From Paraburkholderia phenazinium (GTDB taxonomy: Bacteria > Pseudomonadota > Gammaproteobacteria > Burkholderiales > Burkholderiaceae), in the NCBI RefSeq assembly GCF_900142845.1, contig NZ_FSRU01000001.1, forward strand, positions 2,914,001 through 2,978,000: a DNA stretch of 64,000 bases, given 5' to 3'. Shown one piece after another: positions 26,889 to 36,970 of the stretch (position 1 is the stretch's first letter; each line of letters begins with the position of its first letter). Position numbers and translations under genes: made by a program. Under the pieces are notes generated by a model. That model was not told where the DNA came from, searched no databases, and saw nothing but the letters and a program-made list of their open reading frames with translations.

Positions 26889-27271
26889 CAGCGACCGTTT
26901 GCGCCTTTCAGTAGCAGACTGGCCGGATCGGGCTGAGTTATGCCCAATGCATAGGCAACGTCCTGGACAAACGGCGGGTGCGGTCGTGAGACGCCGTGCG
27001 GCCGTGAGCGGTCGTTGGAACAGTGCTCATAAATCGGCGACAATCGGACATTCTGGAAAGCCATTCTTGCAACTGCGCTGATGTCCTGTCCACTGCGGGC
27101 TTAAAGTGCAGCCGATTCGCGCCGCTCTTGTCCACGGTAACTATCTCGGGCTCGCCGTTCTGTCTACCTTCTCGAAGTAACAGCGAGCTACTTGACCGCG
27201 CTAATGCGACAAAGCCTTCCAGACCTTCAAGGACGTACGGCCCGAGACACATCGAACCAGTTCGCCACATC
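26889..27271. other. Intergenic region with repeat copy 1, no gene seen
   Basis: Apart from the 48-base repeat at 26999-27046 no gene is supported here. An open frame continues upstream of the phospholipase-like gene from 27023, but its predicted protein has no family likeness before the signal peptide. Confidence 0.5.
26999..27046 (+). repeat. 48-base intergenic repeat, copy 1
   Basis: It begins CGGCCGTGAGCGGTC and ends ATCGGCGACAATCG. It is one of five copies of exactly equal length, all on the plus strand between plus-strand genes (others at 29114, 34904, 36971 and 37903). It follows the VOC stop by 110 bases. Confidence 0.7.
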
Positions 27272-28696
27272 ATGACCACGACGAGAAGCCTGGCGCTCAT
27301 TCTGGCATGCGTGTTTGCCTCTTCTCAGCACGGCCACGCGCAATGTGTCGACCTGGTCGCCAGTCTTGACGACGGTCAGTTGATGCAGTCGCGGATTGCG
27401 CTGGTCGACCGTGCCACGCCTACCGAGCAGATCCGCATCCTCGCCTACATTTTCGAAATCGATCAGACCGGCGGCCTGCTGTTGCGTCATCTGGTCGACG
27501 CCGCGCGCCGAGGCGTGCCGGTCAAGCTGCTGATCGACGGCATCGGCCCCGAGCCGCACTTCCCGTTCGAGGACGAGTTCATCGTCGCCCTGCACGAGGT
27601 GGCTCCCGGCATCGAACTCCGAATCTTCCATCCACGATCAGATCTCGTCGAGATTTCGCATCGCATGCACGACAAGCTGTTCCTGGTTGGCGACACGGCC
27701 GTGATCGGCAGTACCTCGATCTGGGATGCGAGCTTCCGCAACTGGCTCAGCGAGCGCGATCTGATGGTGTCGGGCGACGCCGGCCAGGATGCTTCCTCCC
27801 TGCACGCCATGTACCAGCATTTCGCCTTGTTCTGGAATAGCCCGGAAGTGGTTCGCCCCGAGCCGGAAAAATTCCTCAAAGTCGCAAGTCCTTATCGCGT
27901 CTCGCAGGGTTATGCGACGCTGGACCCGGCGCGCATCCGTCATTGGCGCGAATGGCTGCTGGCTCCGCTCGACGCTGCAGCCCGGGCGACGGACCTGGCC
28001 GCTACCGATACACCAACTGCCTCCGATACGCCCAATGATCCCGCCGCTCTGCCCGCACCCGAGGGGTATTTTGATCCCGCCTGGATGCCGATCGCCTGCG
28101 AGCGCCTGCGCTATGTCCACGACTGGCCCGACAAGCGCTCGCCAGGCACGTTGCAGGACATGCTACAAGCGTTCGATACGGCGCAGCACGAAATCCTGAT
28201 CATCAACCCCTACCTGATCCTGGTGCCGGAACTGCGCGAGGCGCTTGAGCGCAAGCGGCGCGAAGGTGTCCACGTGATCCTGGTGAGCGCCTCGCTGGCG
28301 AGCATCACGCAGGAATTCCCCGCAGTCGGGCGCGCCTATGCCGACGATCTGCCCGGCCTGGTGAATGCCGGGATCGAGGTGCGCGAATATTCCGACCGAG
28401 AGAACCGCATGATGCACGCCAAGCTGGTCCTCATCGACGGCCATCGATATTATCTCGGCAGTTTCAATTTCGATTCGCTGTCGGCCCGCTTAAATACCGA
28501 AAACGGCCTGTGGATAGATATCCCTGAGGACGGGCTCGATCCCTTGCAAGACAGCGTGGCGTACTTCCTGCGCAACTCAAGTTCGGTGAGCGACCCCAAT
28601 GGCCGCCTTCTGGCGGATCCCGATGCGCGCTGCCGGGCCGACGGCTGCGGCGGTGCCTGGCGGTGGGTGACGATGTTGATCAGGAACTTCCTCTGA
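27272..28696 (+). CDS. Secreted phospholipase D-like protein
   Basis: This 474-residue protein starts with a signal peptide (MTTTRSLALILACVFASSQ, cleavage near GHAQ). Two phospholipase D half-sites follow. HDKLFLVGD at about residue 133 has glycine where the first HxKxxxxD motif usually has aspartate, with the aspartate one place later. HAKLVLID at about residue 382 is perfect. LGSFNFDSLSARLNTENG completes the second site. The family hydrolyses or transfers phosphodiester bonds in phospholipids, as in cardiolipin synthases. The earlier frame from 27023 lacks family features. Confidence 0.85.
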   Translation: MTTTRSLALILACVFASSQHGHAQCVDLVASLDDGQLMQSRIALVDRATPTEQIRILAYIFEIDQTGGLLLRHLVDAARRGVPVKLLIDGIGPEPHFPFEDEFIVALHEVAPGIELRIFHPRSDLVEISHRMHDKLFLVGDTAVIGSTSIWDASFRNWLSERDLMVSGDAGQDASSLHAMYQHFALFWNSPEVVRPEPEKFLKVASPYRVSQGYATLDPARIRHWREWLLAPLDAAARATDLAATDTPTASDTPNDPAALPAPEGYFDPAWMPIACERLRYVHDWPDKRSPGTLQDMLQAFDTAQHEILIINPYLILVPELREALERKRREGVHVILVSASLASITQEFPAVGRAYADDLPGLVNAGIEVREYSDRENRMMHAKLVLIDGHRYYLGSFNFDSLSARLNTENGLWIDIPEDGLDPLQDSVAYFLRNSSSVSDPNGRLLADPDARCRADGCGGAWRWVTMLIRNFL

Positions 28697-28767
28697 GCGC
28701 GGCGTGCCCTGTCGCTAAACTACGTGGCGAGTTCGGGGGCGCCGAGCAAACCCGCGGAAGCGTGTAA

Positions 28768-29079
28768 GTTTGGATCAAGGCAGCGGGGCTCTTGCCTTCA
28801 GACTTCCTGTTTCCGGGCCGCATTCATGCGTCGCCCCATCTGTCGACGCGTCCGTACGCGCGGCTCGTGCATCGCTGGATACGGTCGATTGGACTGGACG
28901 ACGCCGCGTACGGCACGCACACGATGCGCCGGACCAAAGCGTCGCTGATTTATCGCCGGACAAAAAACCTCCGGGCCGTCCAGCTGCTGCTTGGCCATAC
29001 CAAACTTGAGAGCACAGTCCGGTACCTCGGCATCGAGGTCGACGACGCGCTCGAAATGGCGGAACGGACCGAGGTTTGA
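28768..29079 (+). pseudogene. Tyrosine recombinase (phage-type integrase), C-terminal remnant
   Basis: About 103 residues remain, ending in EVDDALEMAERTEV. Recombinase catalytic-domain residues are clear: THTMRRTKASLIY (histidine and arginine box), LRAVQLLLGHTKLESTVRYLG (LGH box and the nucleophilic tyrosine). A stop codon at 28765 cuts the frame, and the arm-binding and first-arginine parts are missing. A full integrase of this type has 180 or more residues. It marks a past integration event at the left edge of the defence genes and cannot be active as it stands. Confidence 0.8.
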
Positions 29080-29113
29080 GCCGCGATCCCGCCGGACGGT
29101 AACAGACACTGTC

Positions 29114-29161
29114 CGGCCAGGAGCGGTCTTTGGACAGGCACCCACGAATCGTCGACAATCG
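29114..29161 (+). repeat. 48-base intergenic repeat, copy 2
   Basis: It begins CGGCCAGGAGCGGTC and ends ATCGTCGACAATCG. It lies 34 bases after the recombinase remnant and 30 bases before the next start codon. CCACGA and TCGTGG arms surround its 3' end. Confidence 0.75.
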
Positions 29162-29191
29162 TGGTTACCCATTTGCTCAAGTTGAATACCG

Positions 29192-29458
29192 ATGAAAGTA
29201 TCGAGAGACTTCGGAATCGTTGTCCGACGGGCTGCGCTTGTGTCCAAGGATGTCGACCTATCGACGGTCATGGCCGAATTCAATTTTCAGACATACTTTG
29301 ACGAATCCAGCAATCTGATATCGCTCGGTCCGTTTTTTGGAGGCGATGCAGCCGACGAGTGCATGAGGTCATTGGAAAGGCTTGGTCTCGCATACGTCGA
29401 CGACTTTTTTATCTTTGAGGGGTTTGTGCCCGACTGGTGTTCATTCGAAGTCTTTTGA
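29192..29458 (+). CDS. Small hypothetical protein (88 residues)
   Basis: The protein is acidic and rich in aromatic residues (DDFFIFEGFVPDWCSFEVF at the end). No family is recognised. It has no signal peptide or membrane segment. It stands alone between repeat copy 2 and the RloC-like gene. An immunity or antitoxin role is possible from its size and place, but nothing in the sequence shows it. Confidence 0.5.
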   Translation: MKVSRDFGIVVRRAALVSKDVDLSTVMAEFNFQTYFDESSNLISLGPFFGGDAADECMRSLERLGLAYVDDFFIFEGFVPDWCSFEVF

Positions 29459-29759
29459 GGCGCGACGGCTGACGAGCAGCTTCTGCTGTCGGCCACAACC
29501 TGCCGTTCAGCGAGTTGAGGAATTTGCAGTTTGAACGGCAGCCGCACTCCGGAACCCGATGCTCGCGCTATGCGCGCGATTCGACCATTGCGTATCCGTC
29601 AATCCAATGTCAGCTACTCTAAACGCACGATAACGGTTGAACTGTTCAGCGGCCCAACTCGCCGTTGCGGCCCCTCAATCTTCTATCGAGCGGGTAAGAT
29701 TGGGTTCCACACTGCGGGCATATATGCGCGATGAGTATGTTTTCGAGGAGGCCGAGCCT

Positions 29760-32186
29760 GTGATCAATCATATAGACATAGAAAACTTTGGTAGCTTCCA
29801 AGGTTTGGAGTGGAAAAAGACAGTTCGAGACAACGGGAAGAACGTCAAGCCTTTCCAGCGCCTGAACATCCTCTACGGACGCAACTACTCTGGAAAGACG
29901 ACCCTCTCTCGTGTTTTTCGTGCGCTGGAGACGCGCAAGCTCCCGCTGAACTATGTGGGCTCGTCGTTCACCGTGACGGGTGAAAAAGGTGCGGTCACTA
30001 ATGCTGACCTTTTGACCCACAACTATGACGTGCGCGTCTACAACCGCGACTTTGTAACTGACAACCTGAGTTTTCTGGTCAACCAAGAGATCGGCGGCGT
30101 TATCAAGACCTTTGCCATCGTCGGTGAGCAGAACAGGGAGATCGACGACGCCATTGCTGCCATCGAAACCAAGCTTGGCAGTGTGGAGGCCAAGGCTGGA
30201 CTGCGCTTTGACCTAGAGAACAAGAAGAAAGAACGCGATCGCACCAAGACTGCCCATAGCACGGCTTTGAGTGGATTAGAAGGCAAGCTGCGCTCGCATG
30301 CTGCTGAGAAGATAAAGAAGAATCCGCAGTACCTCGTGCCCGTCTACACCATAGAGCACATCAGACGCGACATTGCTTCTACCAGTAAGCCCGGCTTCAT
30401 CGCGCTGACCACCGAGGAACAAGCAGGTAAGCTCACCTTGCTCAAGCAAGAAGCCTTACCCGACATTACAGGCACTCTGGCCGTCACCCTCAAGCTGGAG
30501 TCGCTGAAGGCCATTGCTGGCCCTCTTCTGTCCAAGGCGATAACGCCTACCAAAGCGATTGAAGAACTGCTTAAGGACAGCGCTTTGCAGCTTTGGGTCA
30601 AACAAGGTATCGGGCACCACCGGGACAAGCGGAACACCTGTGCTTTCTGCCGACAGGACTTGCCGTACGACATTTGGCAGGTGCTGGACGAACACTTCAG
30701 CAAAGAGTCGGATGACCTAGAAACGGCCTTGGATGCTGCTATCGCGTCAGTCACGAACGAGATCAAGTCCATTGCTAGACTCAATACCTTCACAGGAGCT
30801 CAGTTTTATGCGGATGAGCGTATCGCGTTTGAAGCGAGCAGCAAGGCACTATCGGAAGCACTTGGTGTCTACCAAGACGATTTGGATGCCCTGAAGAAAT
30901 CGCTTGAGACTCGCAAGAGCAACCTGTTCCAGCCCGTGCTTCTGAAGGCCACTTCACATGACGCCAAGGAGATCGAGAAGCATGTTCAGGACATCAATTC
31001 GCTGATTGTCACGAGCAACGGAAAGACAAAAACCCTGGAAGACGACAAAAACACTGCTAGAGATGCACTTCGCTTGGCTGACGTGTTTGCGTTTGCTGAG
31101 GCGATCACCTATGAGAAGGAGGTTGCGCGCATAGCTAAGCTCAAGACCGACGCCAACACGGCAGATACGGCCCATACGGACACTGAAAGAGATATCCGTG
31201 AAGCTGAGGCAGAAGTCCAAGCCTTGAGAGCCAAGCAAAAAGATGAGCGGAAGGGGGCCGAGAGAGTCAACTCTTTGCTCAACAACTTCTTCGGCCATGA
31301 CGGTATAAAGCTTGAGGCCCGTGACGGCGCAGACAAAGCCACGGTCAAGTTTGAAATCACACGAAACGGTACGGCCGCGTACAACCTCAGCGAAGGCGAG
31401 TGCAGCTTGATTGCCTTTTGCTATTTCATTGCCAAGCTAGACGACCCGGAGAGCAAAGGCAAAGAACTGATCATCTACATTGATGATCCAATTTCTAGCC
31501 TCGACGGAAACCATATCTTCTTCATGTTCAGCTTGATAGAGAGTTTAATTGCGAAGCCGATTAAGAATGCTGACGGTTCAAACGTCTACCGCTACAAGCA
31601 GCTTTTCATCTCGACCCATAACCTGGACTTCCTGAAGTACCTCAAGCGCCTGTCCATTCCGAAGAAGAAAATCCCTGCTGGTGAAGGCAAGACGAAAAGT
31701 GTCGATGACCATGAGCATTTCATGATTGAGCGCAACGGCGCTTCAAGCAACATCTTGCTCATGCCGTCTTATCTTAAAGACTACATAACTGAGTTTCACT
31801 ACCTCTTTCATCAAATCTACAAGTGCAAAGATCAAGCTGCCGCAGCAGATAGCCATGAGCCATTTTTCGGCTTTGGCAACAACCTGCGAAAATTTCTAGA
31901 AGCCTTCTTGTTCTTCAAGTACCCTTATCATGATGATAGGAACGACGCCTTTGAACGGATCAAGAAATTCTTCGGGGAAGAGGAAGATGCAGCAGTTGCG
32001 CTGGTCAACCGCCTTAACAACGAGTTTTCGCACCTAGAATCTGCTCCAGACAGAGGCTTTAAGCCCGTGGAAATTCCTGAGATCGCCAAGGTGGCAAACT
32101 ATGTCTTGGACAAGATTTACGCTGCTGACAAGGTGCAATACAACGCTCTGTTGAAGAGCATAGGAGAGCCTGAGCGAGCAGGCTAA
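29760..32186 (+). CDS. RloC/PrrC-like anticodon nuclease (AAA_13 ABC-type ATPase with HEPN nuclease)
   Basis: This protein of about 808 residues starts MINHIDIENFGSF. The GTG at 29760 follows GAGGAGG by eight bases, so the ATGs at 29637 and 29724 are less likely. Walker A is GRNYSGKTT (40-48), the signature NLSEGECSLIAF, Walker B IIYIDDP (Asp575-576), and the H-loop STHNLDF. A long coiled coil carries CAFC (294-297), the zinc hook of RloC. The C-terminal part has RKFLE (Arg710, Glu714) and RLNNEFSH (Arg751 to His758), the HEPN Rx6H pattern and a candidate R-E-H catalytic triad of PrrC/RloC. Such enzymes cut tRNA anticodons on phage infection. GC is clearly lower than in neighbours, pointing to transfer. 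Confidence 0.83.
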   Translation: MINHIDIENFGSFQGLEWKKTVRDNGKNVKPFQRLNILYGRNYSGKTTLSRVFRALETRKLPLNYVGSSFTVTGEKGAVTNADLLTHNYDVRVYNRDFVTDNLSFLVNQEIGGVIKTFAIVGEQNREIDDAIAAIETKLGSVEAKAGLRFDLENKKKERDRTKTAHSTALSGLEGKLRSHAAEKIKKNPQYLVPVYTIEHIRRDIASTSKPGFIALTTEEQAGKLTLLKQEALPDITGTLAVTLKLESLKAIAGPLLSKAITPTKAIEELLKDSALQLWVKQGIGHHRDKRNTCAFCRQDLPYDIWQVLDEHFSKESDDLETALDAAIASVTNEIKSIARLNTFTGAQFYADERIAFEASSKALSEALGVYQDDLDALKKSLETRKSNLFQPVLLKATSHDAKEIEKHVQDINSLIVTSNGKTKTLEDDKNTARDALRLADVFAFAEAITYEKEVARIAKLKTDANTADTAHTDTERDIREAEAEVQALRAKQKDERKGAERVNSLLNNFFGHDGIKLEARDGADKATVKFEITRNGTAAYNLSEGECSLIAFCYFIAKLDDPESKGKELIIYIDDPISSLDGNHIFFMFSLIESLIAKPIKNADGSNVYRYKQLFISTHNLDFLKYLKRLSIPKKKIPAGEGKTKSVDDHEHFMIERNGASSNILLMPSYLKDYITEFHYLFHQIYKCKDQAAAADSHEPFFGFGNNLRKFLEAFLFFKYPYHDDRNDAFERIKKFFGEEEDAAVALVNRLNNEFSHLESAPDRGFKPVEIPEIAKVANYVLDKIYAADKVQYNALLKSIGEPERAG

Positions 32187-32524
32187 AGGATCGCTTCCGA
32201 TGTCGGATTGTTGGACGGAAGCCGCCACTTAACTCGATCTATACCGAATGGCCGTGCCGGGGCGCGTTGAGCCGGTCAACGGGTCCACGTGCCGACGTGC
32301 CAATGCAAAACGCATGAAGCCGTGCTCGACCAATTTCGGTCTTTCGACATAGGTGTTGCAAATCATTGGCAACCTATCCGGGGCAATTGCCCGTCTCCTA
32401 AGCGGCCTCGTCGGAGATAACACGTTTGATTAGCACCAGACAACAGACAGGTTAGGATATCAACCCGGCGAGGAGGCGCAATACGCTCGTTGTCCCATTC
32501 AAATAAGTGTTTCGGGTAAAGAGA
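32187..32524. other. Intergenic region between the two defence genes, no gene seen
   Basis: No coding frame is supported. Near its left end a stem of GCTTCCG (32193-32199) and CGGAAGC (32216-32222), with a 16-base loop, could end the nuclease transcript. It probably contains a promoter for the next gene. Confidence 0.4.
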
Positions 32525-34834
32525 ATGCAACCGACCTACATTTCTGTTGGAAAGCTGTTTGGGGACCAAGTTCGCCACACGGTGCCGCTGTTTCAGCGGC
32601 CGTACGTCTGGGTTAGGGAGGATCAGTGGGAGCCATTATGGGAAGACATTGCCGGTCTGCTGGACCGCATCGAGCGCCGTGTCGACGGGCAGTCGGTCGC
32701 CGGCCATTTTCTCGGCACGGTAGTCCTCGAGCAAACACCGAACGCTACCGGCAGTCTGCCGCGTCGAGAAGTCATCGACGGGCAGCAACGCTTGACCACG
32801 CTGCAGCTTATGTTGAAAGCAGCCGAGCATGCGTTGTCGCACGCGCTCGACTCAGCCGATGAATCGCAGCGCCGGCCGATTGATGTCGCCCATCGACAGA
32901 TTGCGCCGCTGACGATAAATCCAGGTTGGTCTACCGAAGATGAACAGTATAAGGTCTGGCCGACCAATGAAGATCGTGCACCGTTCACGTCAGTCATGGA
33001 TTCCAAGGCGACCGACACGTGGGCGAAGCCCACAAACCGAATGGCCGAAGCTTACGCCTATTTCCGCGATATGTTTCAGACGTACCTGTCGGGCGCGGAC
33101 GTCGGCCAGCGTGCACAACGTTTCGCAGCCGCTCTCAAGGACCACCTGCGTCTCATCGTTCTAGATCTCGATACGGAAGACGAGCCACAAGCCATCTTCG
33201 AGACGCTGAACGCGCACGGGACGCCACTGCTGCCGGCGGATCTGATCAAGAACTGGCTGCTGTGGGAAGCCAATCGCCAGCAAGTGAACATCGCGCCGCT
33301 CTACGACGCGTATTGGAAGCAGTTCGATCGCGACCACGGTTATTGGCGCGCGCGCGTCGGTGTTGGCCATGCGGCGCGCGCACGTATTGACACCTTCCTA
33401 CAGAACTGGCTGTCGAAAGAAACACTCGAGCAGGTCTCGCCGAAGCATCTCTACGATCGCTTCCTACGATACATGGCGGTTTTGAAGAAACGATCGCTTG
33501 GTGAATTAATTGATGTTGCGCAGCTGATGTCGGCTGTCAAAGCGGATGCGCTTCGATACCAGCGAATCGCTAACGCCACTGGCACTACACGTTTCGATGC
33601 ATTTCTGCGGCGCTTGGCGGTGCTGGATGTGACTGTATTCCAGCCGCTGCTGCTCTTTATCATGGGCCGACCGAACATCACGATCGCCGATCTCGACGAC
33701 GTGGCGGTCGTGTTGGAGAGCTACTTCGTGCGCCGCATGGTCTGCGGCATGCAAACGCGTGGGGCTGGATCAATGGCACTGGCGTTGGTGAGGGTTGTTG
33801 CTCAGATTCCCGAAGGAATGGGCATCGCCGCGTCTTTGGAGAGCTATCTGCTGGCCGCGGCAGGGGCTGACCAATGGCCTAACGACAGCGTGTTCCAACT
33901 GGACTGGAGAACCCGGCGCTTTTATGGCGGGTTGAAGCGCGAACGCGTCAATATGATTCTGCAGGCTATCGAGGAGGCCTACCAGAAGTCGACGTCCAGC
34001 AAGGCCGAACCGCTATTGACATTCGATTTTTCCCAGCTCGAGATTGAACACATCATGCCGCAAAAATGGCGGGAACATTGGCCACTGGGCGACGGTCAAA
34101 TTGCAGACGGTCGCGATATTGTTGTGCATGGAATCGGGAACTTGACGCTGGTGAGCAAGAAACTGAATCCGAACCTATCGAACGCTCCGTGGATATCGGA
34201 GAACGGTGGCAAGTCGAAGCGCGAAGGATTGGAAGAGCACAGCAAGCTCGAGCTAAATCGTTGGCTGCTTAAGCACAACGGGATATGGGACGAGACATCG
34301 ATAGCAACCCGGGCCGATGAGCTGTTCAAACAGGCAATGATATTGTGGCCGATTCCGAGCAAATCTGCTCCCGATACAAGTACATCGGATACAGGTACCA
34401 CACCGCCAATTGAAAGCAGCACGCGCAGCGCACCGATCATGACGAACACCGACCTGGCCACTGCGGTAAGTCGCGCCTCTAGTTCCGCGGGCGTGTCCGC
34501 GGCCGATTCCATCTCTAACTTCTACGTGACGTTGCAACCGACTTATTTCAACATGGGATTCTTCAACGTCACCGTCAAGGCGTCAGATCTGTTTCCGGCG
34601 GCCGGTGGCAGTATAAAAATCGTCTGCGGTTCCGAGAAACTGGTTGTCGACGGGCGCTTCGATCGGTCGACCAATACCAACGGTGCGCCGCGCGTGTTTG
34701 GCTATGCCCCGTTGAAAAATTGGTTTCAACAAAACCTAGCGCCGATGGAAGAATTTGTAGTCGAGATGATCGGCCCTTCCACGATAAGCGTGAACAAGTC
34801 TCAGCCCGGCGCCTCGACCTCTTCTCTTCGATGA
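32525..34834 (+). CDS. DUF262/DUF1524 protein (GmrSD/SspE-like restriction nuclease)
   Basis: This protein has 769 residues. The N-terminal DUF262 domain has PLFQRPYVW (21-29) and the ParB-like IDGQQRLTTL (84-93), a nucleotide-dependent regulatory site. The DUF1524 domain has LEIEHIMPQKW (about 505-515) with the His-Met-Pro nuclease core, then GNLTLVSKKLN. GmrSD and SspE of this design cut modified or unmodified phage DNA. An extra domain of about 130 residues (from about residue 640) follows, unlike ordinary GmrSD. The ATG at 32525 is chosen over a GTG at 32507 as the domain begins there. No partner genes (SspABCD) are near. Confidence 0.85.
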   Translation: MQPTYISVGKLFGDQVRHTVPLFQRPYVWVREDQWEPLWEDIAGLLDRIERRVDGQSVAGHFLGTVVLEQTPNATGSLPRREVIDGQQRLTTLQLMLKAAEHALSHALDSADESQRRPIDVAHRQIAPLTINPGWSTEDEQYKVWPTNEDRAPFTSVMDSKATDTWAKPTNRMAEAYAYFRDMFQTYLSGADVGQRAQRFAAALKDHLRLIVLDLDTEDEPQAIFETLNAHGTPLLPADLIKNWLLWEANRQQVNIAPLYDAYWKQFDRDHGYWRARVGVGHAARARIDTFLQNWLSKETLEQVSPKHLYDRFLRYMAVLKKRSLGELIDVAQLMSAVKADALRYQRIANATGTTRFDAFLRRLAVLDVTVFQPLLLFIMGRPNITIADLDDVAVVLESYFVRRMVCGMQTRGAGSMALALVRVVAQIPEGMGIAASLESYLLAAAGADQWPNDSVFQLDWRTRRFYGGLKRERVNMILQAIEEAYQKSTSSKAEPLLTFDFSQLEIEHIMPQKWREHWPLGDGQIADGRDIVVHGIGNLTLVSKKLNPNLSNAPWISENGGKSKREGLEEHSKLELNRWLLKHNGIWDETSIATRADELFKQAMILWPIPSKSAPDTSTSDTGTTPPIESSTRSAPIMTNTDLATAVSRASSSAGVSAADSISNFYVTLQPTYFNMGFFNVTVKASDLFPAAGGSIKIVCGSEKLVVDGRFDRSTNTNGAPRVFGYAPLKNWFQQNLAPMEEFVVEMIGPSTISVNKSQPGASTSSLR

Positions 34835-34903
34835 ACGACTGCTTTCGGCAAGAGCGACTGTCTCTTTGGGGTCGAGTACGGAAGTTCAGCGTCGGACCGG
34901 GTT

Positions 34904-34951
34904 CGGCCAGAAGCGGTCAGACGACAACCCGGCACGGATCGCTGACAATCG
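34904..34951 (+). repeat. 48-base intergenic repeat, copy 3
   Basis: It begins CGGCCAGAAGCGGTC and ends ATCGCTGACAATCG. The bases CCGGGTT directly before it recur before copy 5. It lies 69 bases after the GmrSD-like gene. Confidence 0.7.
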
Positions 34952-35090
34952 GATCGCAGTACCATCCGCTCGATAACGGCCGCCAGTAGATGATCTGGAC
35001 GGCCGAACCGTCGGCCCATGCCGCCAGGAAGCGGAGTCCGAGTGTCCGATACAATCTCGTACTCCCATCGGTCCCTGACAGTGAGCCCAA

Positions 35091-36080
35091 ATGGCAAATC
35101 GCCGAATAACTGAGTTGGTACAGGAGGCGCTCGCGATTCGTGCAAGAGCTTACGGCCTGGACAGTGATTCGACTTGGGCGGGGGTAAAAAAGCGAATGCA
35201 CGAACTTAAAGGCCTCGCAGCGACAGTCGACAGCAACGAAGTTCGTCGGCACGTGATTGTTGCGTCGATTGCAACGCTTCAAACGTTCGTTCGCTTTTCA
35301 ATCTCCGAACTCGTCAATTCCGAAGCGCAATATCGCGTACGTGCGGCGGAAAGGATTCCGGAGAAATATTCGGTGAAGGACGCGCTCACGCTGTTGGACG
35401 ATCAGACCATCAGCTTTGGCGAGCTAGTGGCGCATATCGCTTCGTACAATTCGGTTACGGATGTAGTGTCTTGGCTCGGTGCGATCCTCGGACTTGATCT
35501 TAAAAGTGCGCTATCTAACGCCCGTAGTCATTACATGCTGCGCAGAGGTTCGAAGGGGGCACCTCTTCTGATTGCCGATGTCGATCAGTTGTTAGGTGAC
35601 GTAGAAAACGCCTTCCGGCTCCGGCACATATTGGCCCACGAAATGGCCTACGGACTTTCTATCGAAACCGAAGAGTGCCGACGCTTGGTAGGAGCGGTGG
35701 ACCGATTTATCGCCGCTCTCAACGCAGTTATCTGGAACACCGCTTACACGGAAGTGCCATTGGTTCCGGAGGAATACCGCGAGCGAGCAAGCGAAACGCG
35801 ATGCGCTGCTAGGAGCGAACTCGCCAAGAGCCTATTCCGAGCAAGGGAGGTGGCGCGAATACTGGGATTTTCATCATGGCTCCGCAACAGTCACCTCCAC
35901 TGGGTGCGGTTCGGACGAGCGTGGGCGGGAGGAGGACTGCAAGACCAGCTTGTGGGACCCATACCAGAATTTCTTCGATTTGGAGAAACAGACATGATCC
36001 TTCGACGATCTGCGCAGGTAGCAGAATGGGTCACCTTTTGGGGAGACCCACTTACGCTTCAGGATCGTTGGCGCAAATAG
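35091..36080 (+). CDS. HEPN-motif protein, candidate RNase toxin
   Basis: This 329-residue protein of unrecognised family is mostly helical. Residues 176-183 read RLRHILAH, containing R178xxxxH183, the Rx4H motif that forms the active site in HEPN ribonucleases. It has no signal peptide. The remainder, including a tryptophan-rich C-terminal part (SSWLRNSHLHWVRFGRAW), shows no known domain. Its placement after two defence-type nucleases suggests a role in phage defence or toxin-antitoxin function, but the motif is short and can arise by chance. Confidence 0.6.
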   Translation: MANRRITELVQEALAIRARAYGLDSDSTWAGVKKRMHELKGLAATVDSNEVRRHVIVASIATLQTFVRFSISELVNSEAQYRVRAAERIPEKYSVKDALTLLDDQTISFGELVAHIASYNSVTDVVSWLGAILGLDLKSALSNARSHYMLRRGSKGAPLLIADVDQLLGDVENAFRLRHILAHEMAYGLSIETEECRRLVGAVDRFIAALNAVIWNTAYTEVPLVPEEYRERASETRCAARSELAKSLFRAREVARILGFSSWLRNSHLHWVRFGRAWAGGGLQDQLVGPIPEFLRFGETDMILRRSAQVAEWVTFWGDPLTLQDRWRK

Positions 36081-36422
36081 CGTCACAGAACTGGGGCGCG
36101 CTCGGCGACGGTGCGTTCGCGCGACAAGCCAATGTACTGAGAGATGCGTGTCGGGGTTAGATGTCCGCTATGTAGATACGGGTCCGACTGCTCAGGGTCG
36201 CGTGCCGACCATCGCCGTCGGGCAGTGACCGGCCTGTAGCCGCCCATCGTGAACGTCTTCTTTCGGGTATGCTGGGATCCCTACGATTTCAAGTCTTGCA
36301 GGGGCGATCGTCATCGGCCTGGTGGGTGCGATACGAATCATCGAAATCGCCTGCAACGTGTCGATTCGACAGCCCTTCGTTCGTCGTGGTTTTGAAGCAC
36401 CATTCAACTCAGGAGAACGACG
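36081..36422. other. Intergenic region, no gene seen
   Basis: No supported gene. A short coding-like stretch near 36094-36162 (ending ANVLRDACRG) may be the last trace of a lost gene, but is too short to name. Confidence 0.4.
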
Positions 36423-36860
36423 ATGCGATTCATCATCACAGCCCAGGCAAGTGCAGACAATGTGAAGCCGGATGCCGGCGGCGGTTTGGACGAGGCCCTT
36501 CTCACGGCATACATGAGATTCAACGAAGAGATGTACAAGGCCGGTGTCCTGGTGGCTTCCGAAGGCTTGAACCCAGCAGCGCCCGGAGCGCGAATTGCGG
36601 TTAGCAAGGGGAAACGCTACATCGTTGATGGCCCATTTGCCGAGTCCAAGGAACTGGTCGGTGGCTTTTACATCGTCGAAGTTGGATCGCTCGAGGAAGC
36701 GATTTCCTGGGCATTGCGCGCGCCATCCGGTCTCGGCTCGGACGATGTACTGGAGGTGCGCCAACTCACCGGAGCGGGCGACGTCCCGCCCGACGTCCTC
36801 GACATCATCCGGGCAGCGGCACCGACCTGGAGCGAGTCGGTTTGGCAGGCGCGGAAGTGA
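36423..36860 (+). CDS. YciI-related (DGPF domain) protein
   Basis: This 145-residue protein starts MRFIITAQASAD and carries the hallmark VDGPFAESKELVGGFYIVEV (about residues 68-87), the DGPF motif of YciI-like proteins. The histidine/aspartate pair of the fold is not obvious at the N-terminus. Members often sit beside ECF sigma factors, but none is adjacent here. The biochemical role is unknown. It has a good ribosome site (AGGAGAACG). Confidence 0.85.
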   Translation: MRFIITAQASADNVKPDAGGGLDEALLTAYMRFNEEMYKAGVLVASEGLNPAAPGARIAVSKGKRYIVDGPFAESKELVGGFYIVEVGSLEEAISWALRAPSGLGSDDVLEVRQLTGAGDVPPDVLDIIRAAAPTWSESVWQARK

Positions 36861-36970
36861 AGGCCACAGACGGAACCGCCGAGTTGCCGCCCAGCCGCGT
36901 GCTCGAGTCGACGACCGCCGGCTTCAGGTCGGTGGCGTTACGTTCGGCCTGACCGATTTCAGGCTGGACT

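Follow-up and report, generated by a model that had tools for sequence, protein, structure and literature searches.

A mobile single gene of Paraburkholderia phenazinium that probably encodes an RloC-type anticodon nuclease

What is encoded by the long, GC-poor reading frame at positions 29760 to 32186 of a 64,000-nucleotide stretch of Paraburkholderia phenazinium DNA (assembly GCF_900142845.1, contig NZ_FSRU01000001.1, positions 2,914,001 to 2,978,000 of the forward strand; hereafter the window), and how did it come to be there? The initial annotation, made from the letters alone, took it for an RloC-like anticodon nuclease (ACNase) that had arrived by transfer. We consider it very probable that the gene does encode an RloC-type ACNase, and it looks like an intact, ordinary copy of this already-known kind of protein. 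The frame runs unbroken from GTG to TAA and yields a product of 808 residues.

29760..32186, + strand: rloC-like gene, 808 residues; Pfam AAA_13 at 1.1e-148 over residues 22-783, PADLOC PDC-S06 at 1028 bits over residues 2-805

Both profiles span almost the whole protein, and AAA_13, the family against which a check had been proposed, scores 497.5 bits. PDC-S06 (PDLC04887) is a candidate label without a mechanism, reported from one S. thermophilus strain, and "RloC" is the literature name that we apply here to a protein matching it; RloC is itself named among the known defence systems of S. thermophilus, in one study as an untested one. A first homologue search scored 7997 candidates and returned 1028 at E 0.001. 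The best 120 of these, our protein included, align over the whole length at 79-100% identity, and 11 of the 120 listed carry the JGI name "wobble nucleotide-excising tRNase". A second search, with a 39%-identical relative as the query, found 1984, of which 120 were listed. We then aligned 88 proteins, namely our own, 21 from the first search, 61 from the second and five from named loci, the other 87 being 37-90% identical to ours. The motifs, with their conservation in this alignment, are as follows.

29877..29903, + strand: Walker A region GRNYSGKTT, residues 40-48; R41, N42, K46 and T47 invariant in 88
30639..30650, + strand: CAFC of the zinc hook, residues 294-297; both cysteines, C294 and C297, the same in all 88
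31383..31400, + strand: ABC signature NLSEGE, residues 542-547; S544, G546 and E547 invariant in 88
31470..31490, + strand: Walker B and start of the D-loop, IIYIDDP, residues 571-577; D575 and D576 invariant in 88
31617..31619, + strand: H620, the switch (linchpin) histidine in STHN; invariant in 88
31887..31901, + strand: R710-K-F-L-E714, first half of the nuclease triad; R in 88/88, E in 87/88; faces the PrrC-type R and E when full-length profiles are aligned
32010..32033, + strand: R751-LNNEFS-H758, HEPN R-x6-H with the catalytic His; R and H in 88/88; faces the PrrC-type R and H

The protein length and motif positions of the initial annotation were thus all recovered. The spacing from R751 to H758 is six residues in all 88 proteins, in which K711 and S757 are likewise unvarying; residue 714 is D in the single protein that lacks E, and the gap between E714 and H758 is 39 in 57 proteins, 43 in 26 (our own reads R710-x3-E714-x43-H758) and 37, 38, 40 or 42 in five. 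Bare motif matches were dropped as evidence, since the pattern R-x3-E-X36-52-H is reached in 67% of 5000 shuffles of the whole protein. It occurs three times in the 808 residues, starting at 149, 354 and 710, and only the stretch at 710 is kept in every one of the uninterrupted relatives (15/15; 16 loci read). The triad joined to R-x4-6-H through the same histidine turns up in 15% of whole-protein shuffles and in 2.8% of shuffles of residues 676-808, and CxxC in 2.3% of shuffles. As far as sequences can tell, it is conservation and not string matching that makes these motifs real. One relative, from Rhodoferax sp. BLA1 (L009:8001-10415), is broken by a stop after residue 305.

Davidov and Kaufmann (2008; PMC2610378) describe RloC as sharing the ABC motifs of PrrC, with a CX2C insert dividing the ATPase, a triad R-X3-E-X36-52-H whose His is often preceded by Ser, a size of 658-897 residues, GUG starts in 13 of 70 cases and linkage to type I or III restriction-modification loci in 8 of 73. 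Every sequence-readable element of that description, as the available text gives it, is found in our protein, which supports the RloC design that had been proposed for it: the Walker A, signature, Walker B/D-loop and switch-histidine motifs, an ATPase split by a helical CXXC insert (long helices in the model, both cysteines in 88/88), the residues R710, E714, S757 and H758, the size, and a window in which the scanned open reading frames (ORFs) include no type I or III system. Anantharaman et al. (2013) place the RloC nuclease domain in the HEPN superfamily, whose motif, R-x4-6-H, is matched by R751-x6-H758. The initial annotation had counted two catalytic signatures. Both are present, but they describe one site twice, the first as the ACNase triad of Davidov and Kaufmann and the second as the HEPN motif of Anantharaman et al., with H758 common to both.

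The predicted structure of the head has its best fold match in Rad50; SMC, RecF and the Lamassu LmuACB chain 9hqx_f (Foldseek E 1.1e-5) match as well, and the fold-search rows span residues 1-679. Long helices are predicted between the ATPase halves (148-186, 303-340, 351-387, 402-448 and 451-493), and helices 274-290 and 303-340 flank CAFC within a region, 261-320, of low confidence. The C-terminal part is predicted as helices 705-720, 742-755, 757-760, 772-789 and 791-800, with low confidence at H758.

We also compared the protein with PrrC-type proteins, collected with the PADLOC PrrC model (12 of 369 genomes at 1e-40, of which ten gave the loci used and two, with short matches, were dropped); these are 356-407 residues long in nine proteins and 386 in L049. 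The full-length profile comparison gave probability 97.1 and E 5.1e-11 over RloC residues 541-808, with R710 and E714 opposite the R and E of PrrC "LRNLYE" and R751 and H758 opposite R and H, although the strength of this comparison comes largely from the ATPase part. The PrrC model spans residues 501-783 of one relative, P0250. PrrC itself is described as a protein of 341-416 residues with no hook insert and with type Ic linkage; ours has 808 residues and a CXXC insert, and no type I genes lie among the scanned neighbours of rloC.

Several observations weigh against the assignment. The C-terminal region alone, set against PrrC-type C-termini (4 of the 10 proteins), gave probability 0.4, with a reversed control at 1.9, and an earlier single-protein C-terminal comparison found no significant match either. 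The nuclease region is also the least certain part of the model, with a predicted local distance difference test (pLDDT) score of 57 around residues 751-760 and below 50 at 758-764. No solved structure matches the 808-residue protein by sequence; a structure-profile search gave 16 chains at E 1 or better, the best at 0.0062, which are apolipoprotein, keratin and similar chains matched in the helical insert. Finally, membership in the RloC kind appears to follow from the published description and from names, and not from direct alignment to a characterised RloC.

How the gene arrived can be approached through its start, its composition and its neighbours.

29746..29753, + strand: likely ribosome-binding site, purine-rich (gaggagg), ahead of the GTG start
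28792..29079, + strand: neighbouring truncated tyrosine recombinase, C-terminal half; PF00589 at 8.5e-10, profile positions 92-166 of 172
32507..34834, + strand: neighbouring GmrSD-like (type IV restriction) protein, 775 residues; GmrSD_N 1.3e-36, GmrSD_C 9.9e-27, PADLOC Orf5 2.8e-91
35091..36080, + strand: neighbouring HEPN-like protein of an unnamed family, 329 residues; RLRHIxxHE invariant across the 23 aligned, HEPN entries matched weakly by fold

Longer in-frame starts exist upstream (TTG 29637, ATG 29724), and one database record (P0002) gives the same gene as 828 residues. DNA similarity sets in at 29745-29775 across the loci covering the rloC start, and at 29746-29755 in the four closest relatives; because similarity begins around there, 29760 is likely the start, to judge from these comparisons. 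Most of the 15 relatives shown are also purine-rich before the start, and the aligned codon in the 16 relatives read is GTG in 12 and ATG in 4.

The drop in guanine-plus-cytosine (GC) content and the adjoining recombinase remnant that the initial annotation had taken as signs of transfer were both found: GC is 0.531 at 30001-31000 and 0.483 at 31001-32000, whereas the 57 one-kilobase bins that lie outside 29001-36000 range over 0.548-0.673. Among 20 genome loci with relatives from named species, the closest, at 88-90% DNA identity, belong to Paraburkholderia fungorum, Ralstonia soli, Achromobacter xylosoxidans and Alcaligenes faecalis, and these four share rloC alone, the similar stretch opening 5-14 bases ahead of the start codon and closing 75-91 bases past the stop. 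Because they share only the gene itself, rloC appears to travel as a single-gene module, and transfer is supported by the low GC together with the presence in other genera of relatives that have only rloC in common. Locus L003 is an exception: a recombinase piece related to ours at 85% protein identity lies on the opposite side, downstream of its rloC. The GmrSD-like gene was not matched in any of the 20 relatives' loci, nor were the ORFs at 35091 and 29192, and flank-to-flank DNA matches above 150 bases occur in only a few pairs (L002-L016, L003-L007, L005-L023 and L011-L019, the last being two Acidovorax metagenome-assembled genomes).

At 1e-50, two of 59 relatives' genomes match, one being our own and the second having 31% identity; at 1e-20, six of the 369 genomes of the class do so, again with our own. 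Of 72,556 plasmid records, 107 match at 1e-40, 103 of them below 60% identity and 96 typed as conjugative. One of 50,697 phage records matches, at 27%. These searches point to a lone gene that moves widely, and in these collections mainly not by phages. On the Pseudomonas fluorescens conjugative plasmid pG69 (L058:6001-14421), an rloC relative lies beside genes annotated as phospholipase D-like anti-phage and anti-phage-associated DUF1156.

For two further blocks of the window, 26997-28737 and 36231-36922, genomes of the same genus contain matches at 92-96%. An empty site was not found, the two blocks never occurring together in six fetched stretches; because no stretch carried both, the neighbouring pieces look like separately mobile blocks. 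The first of them (+ strand), a phospholipase D (PLD)-family gene block, is matched by DNA at 93-96% in several genomes of the genus, where the stretches read do not include the rest of the locus. The stretch around the recombinase remnant, 28730-29160, recurs at 70-90% in many genomes of the genus, sometimes more than once within a few kilobases (e.g. G445 C27), and such arrays may mark a recurrent integration site; in its own genome the piece is single, bar one weak 50-base match.

We suggest that the protein works as follows. The N-terminal two thirds would form a Rad50-like ABC ATPase head, its halves parted by the helical insert with the CXXC hook, and a pair of molecules would be held together by zinc where their hooks meet and by ATP where their heads do. 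The last 130 or so residues would be a HEPN ribonuclease, with R710, E714, R751 and H758 as a metal-independent active site that the ATPase part holds silent at rest. An encounter with DNA ends that are broken or foreign, coupled to hydrolysis of ATP, would then release cutting of tRNA anticodon loops, with loss of the wobble nucleotide as in the Geobacillus enzyme, and translation would halt in the infected or damaged cell. The gene would act alone, with no fixed partner, and spread as a single-gene module. The order of the domains, the conserved motifs, the Rad50-like fold of the predicted head and the absence of common neighbours come directly from our comparisons; for the tRNA cutting, wobble excision, DNA-break trigger and zinc regulation we argue by analogy with characterised relatives, among them the A. 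baylyi RloC, for which activation by a DNA break inducer is described (PMC3874168).

A first alternative is that RloC depends here on a restriction-modification partner in the manner of PrrC, and the eight type I- or III-linked cases among 73 (PMC2610378) lend it some weight. The GmrSD-like gene lies 320 bases downstream of the rloC stop, but it is matched in 0 of the 20 relatives' loci. A Pfam scan of the flanks (106 of 114 ORFs in 16 of the 20 loci, leaving out seven short ORFs and one fragment of the interrupted rloC in L009) found Phage_integrase and Radical_SAM commonest, at three each, among the first 25 of 54 and the first 25 of 39 families. A conserved partner gene was rejected, since no neighbour family shown exceeds 3 of the 106 ORFs. 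In its own genome, a search that covered HsdR only returned no TIGR00348 (hsdR) match, where 10 of 14 control genomes were positive, and one partial PF04313 (HSDR_N) match (positions 123-197 of 198, in a 383-residue frame). A type I restriction partner is therefore unlikely, and dependence on any such partner we regard as improbable. The HsdR result fits silencing by the protein's own ATPase part, as proposed for RloC, and not by a restriction enzyme as with PrrC; finding no full HsdR suits an enzyme that brings its own switch.

Somewhat less probable still is a ribonuclease of the RloC/PrrC kind with a target other than the anticodon loop, such as mRNA or another tRNA site. The target is not readable from sequence, and the account of Anantharaman et al. 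includes several groups of ABC-HEPN proteins as well as HEPN enzymes that cut mRNA (RNase LS, LsoA), but the triad spacing, the Ser before the His, the hook and the size all follow the RloC definition, and a Geobacillus enzyme of the same architecture cuts anticodon loops (PMC2610378). A repair or SMC-type ATPase of the Rad50, SbcC or RecF kind without ribonuclease activity, favoured by the head's best folds and by an NCBIfam top match to RecF (28.4 bits, far under its cut-off of 172), is very improbable given a C-terminal extension of about 130 residues that keeps R710, R751 and H758 in every aligned protein and E714 in all but one, whereas Rad50 and SbcC end at the second ATPase half, with a separate nuclease, and they and gp46 are described as without such a region (PMC2610378).

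As an RloC-type ACNase, the protein is one more well-preserved member of a known family, and the useful part of the locus is its very clean single-gene mobility, with no flanks common to the four closest relatives. More novel and less explored is the product of 35091-36080. Neither Pfam nor PADLOC matches it at E 0.1, and the invariant RLRHIxxHE of its family fits the R-x4-H pattern; it is possibly an undescribed HEPN ribonuclease family. We would put forward, tentatively and at rather less than even odds, a layered locus in which RloC and this second HEPN ribonuclease stand beside the GmrSD-like gene, DNA restriction being backed by two independent RNA cutters, with the second enzyme as founder of a rare, new family of HEPN defence proteins. 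The GmrSD-like protein itself has some 160 surplus residues at its C-terminus.

Set among known systems, the head fold is like that of Rad50/SbcC and of the Lamassu LmuB protein. LmuB is not known to have a HEPN C-terminus. Rad50 and SbcC are described as lacking one too (PMC2610378), unlike our protein. With PrrC it shares the ABC motifs and the C-terminal R-x3-E ... R-x6-H, collinear in the profile alignment, but RloC is longer by about 400 residues, which include the hook. The closest likeness is to RloC of G. kaustophilus and A. baylyi, as far as these are described (PMC2610378, PMC3874168): the comparison, made by description, shows no structural difference, and our protein has the same CXXC-split ABC ATPase, the triad with its Ser, the size, the GUG start and the freedom from a fixed restriction-modification partner.
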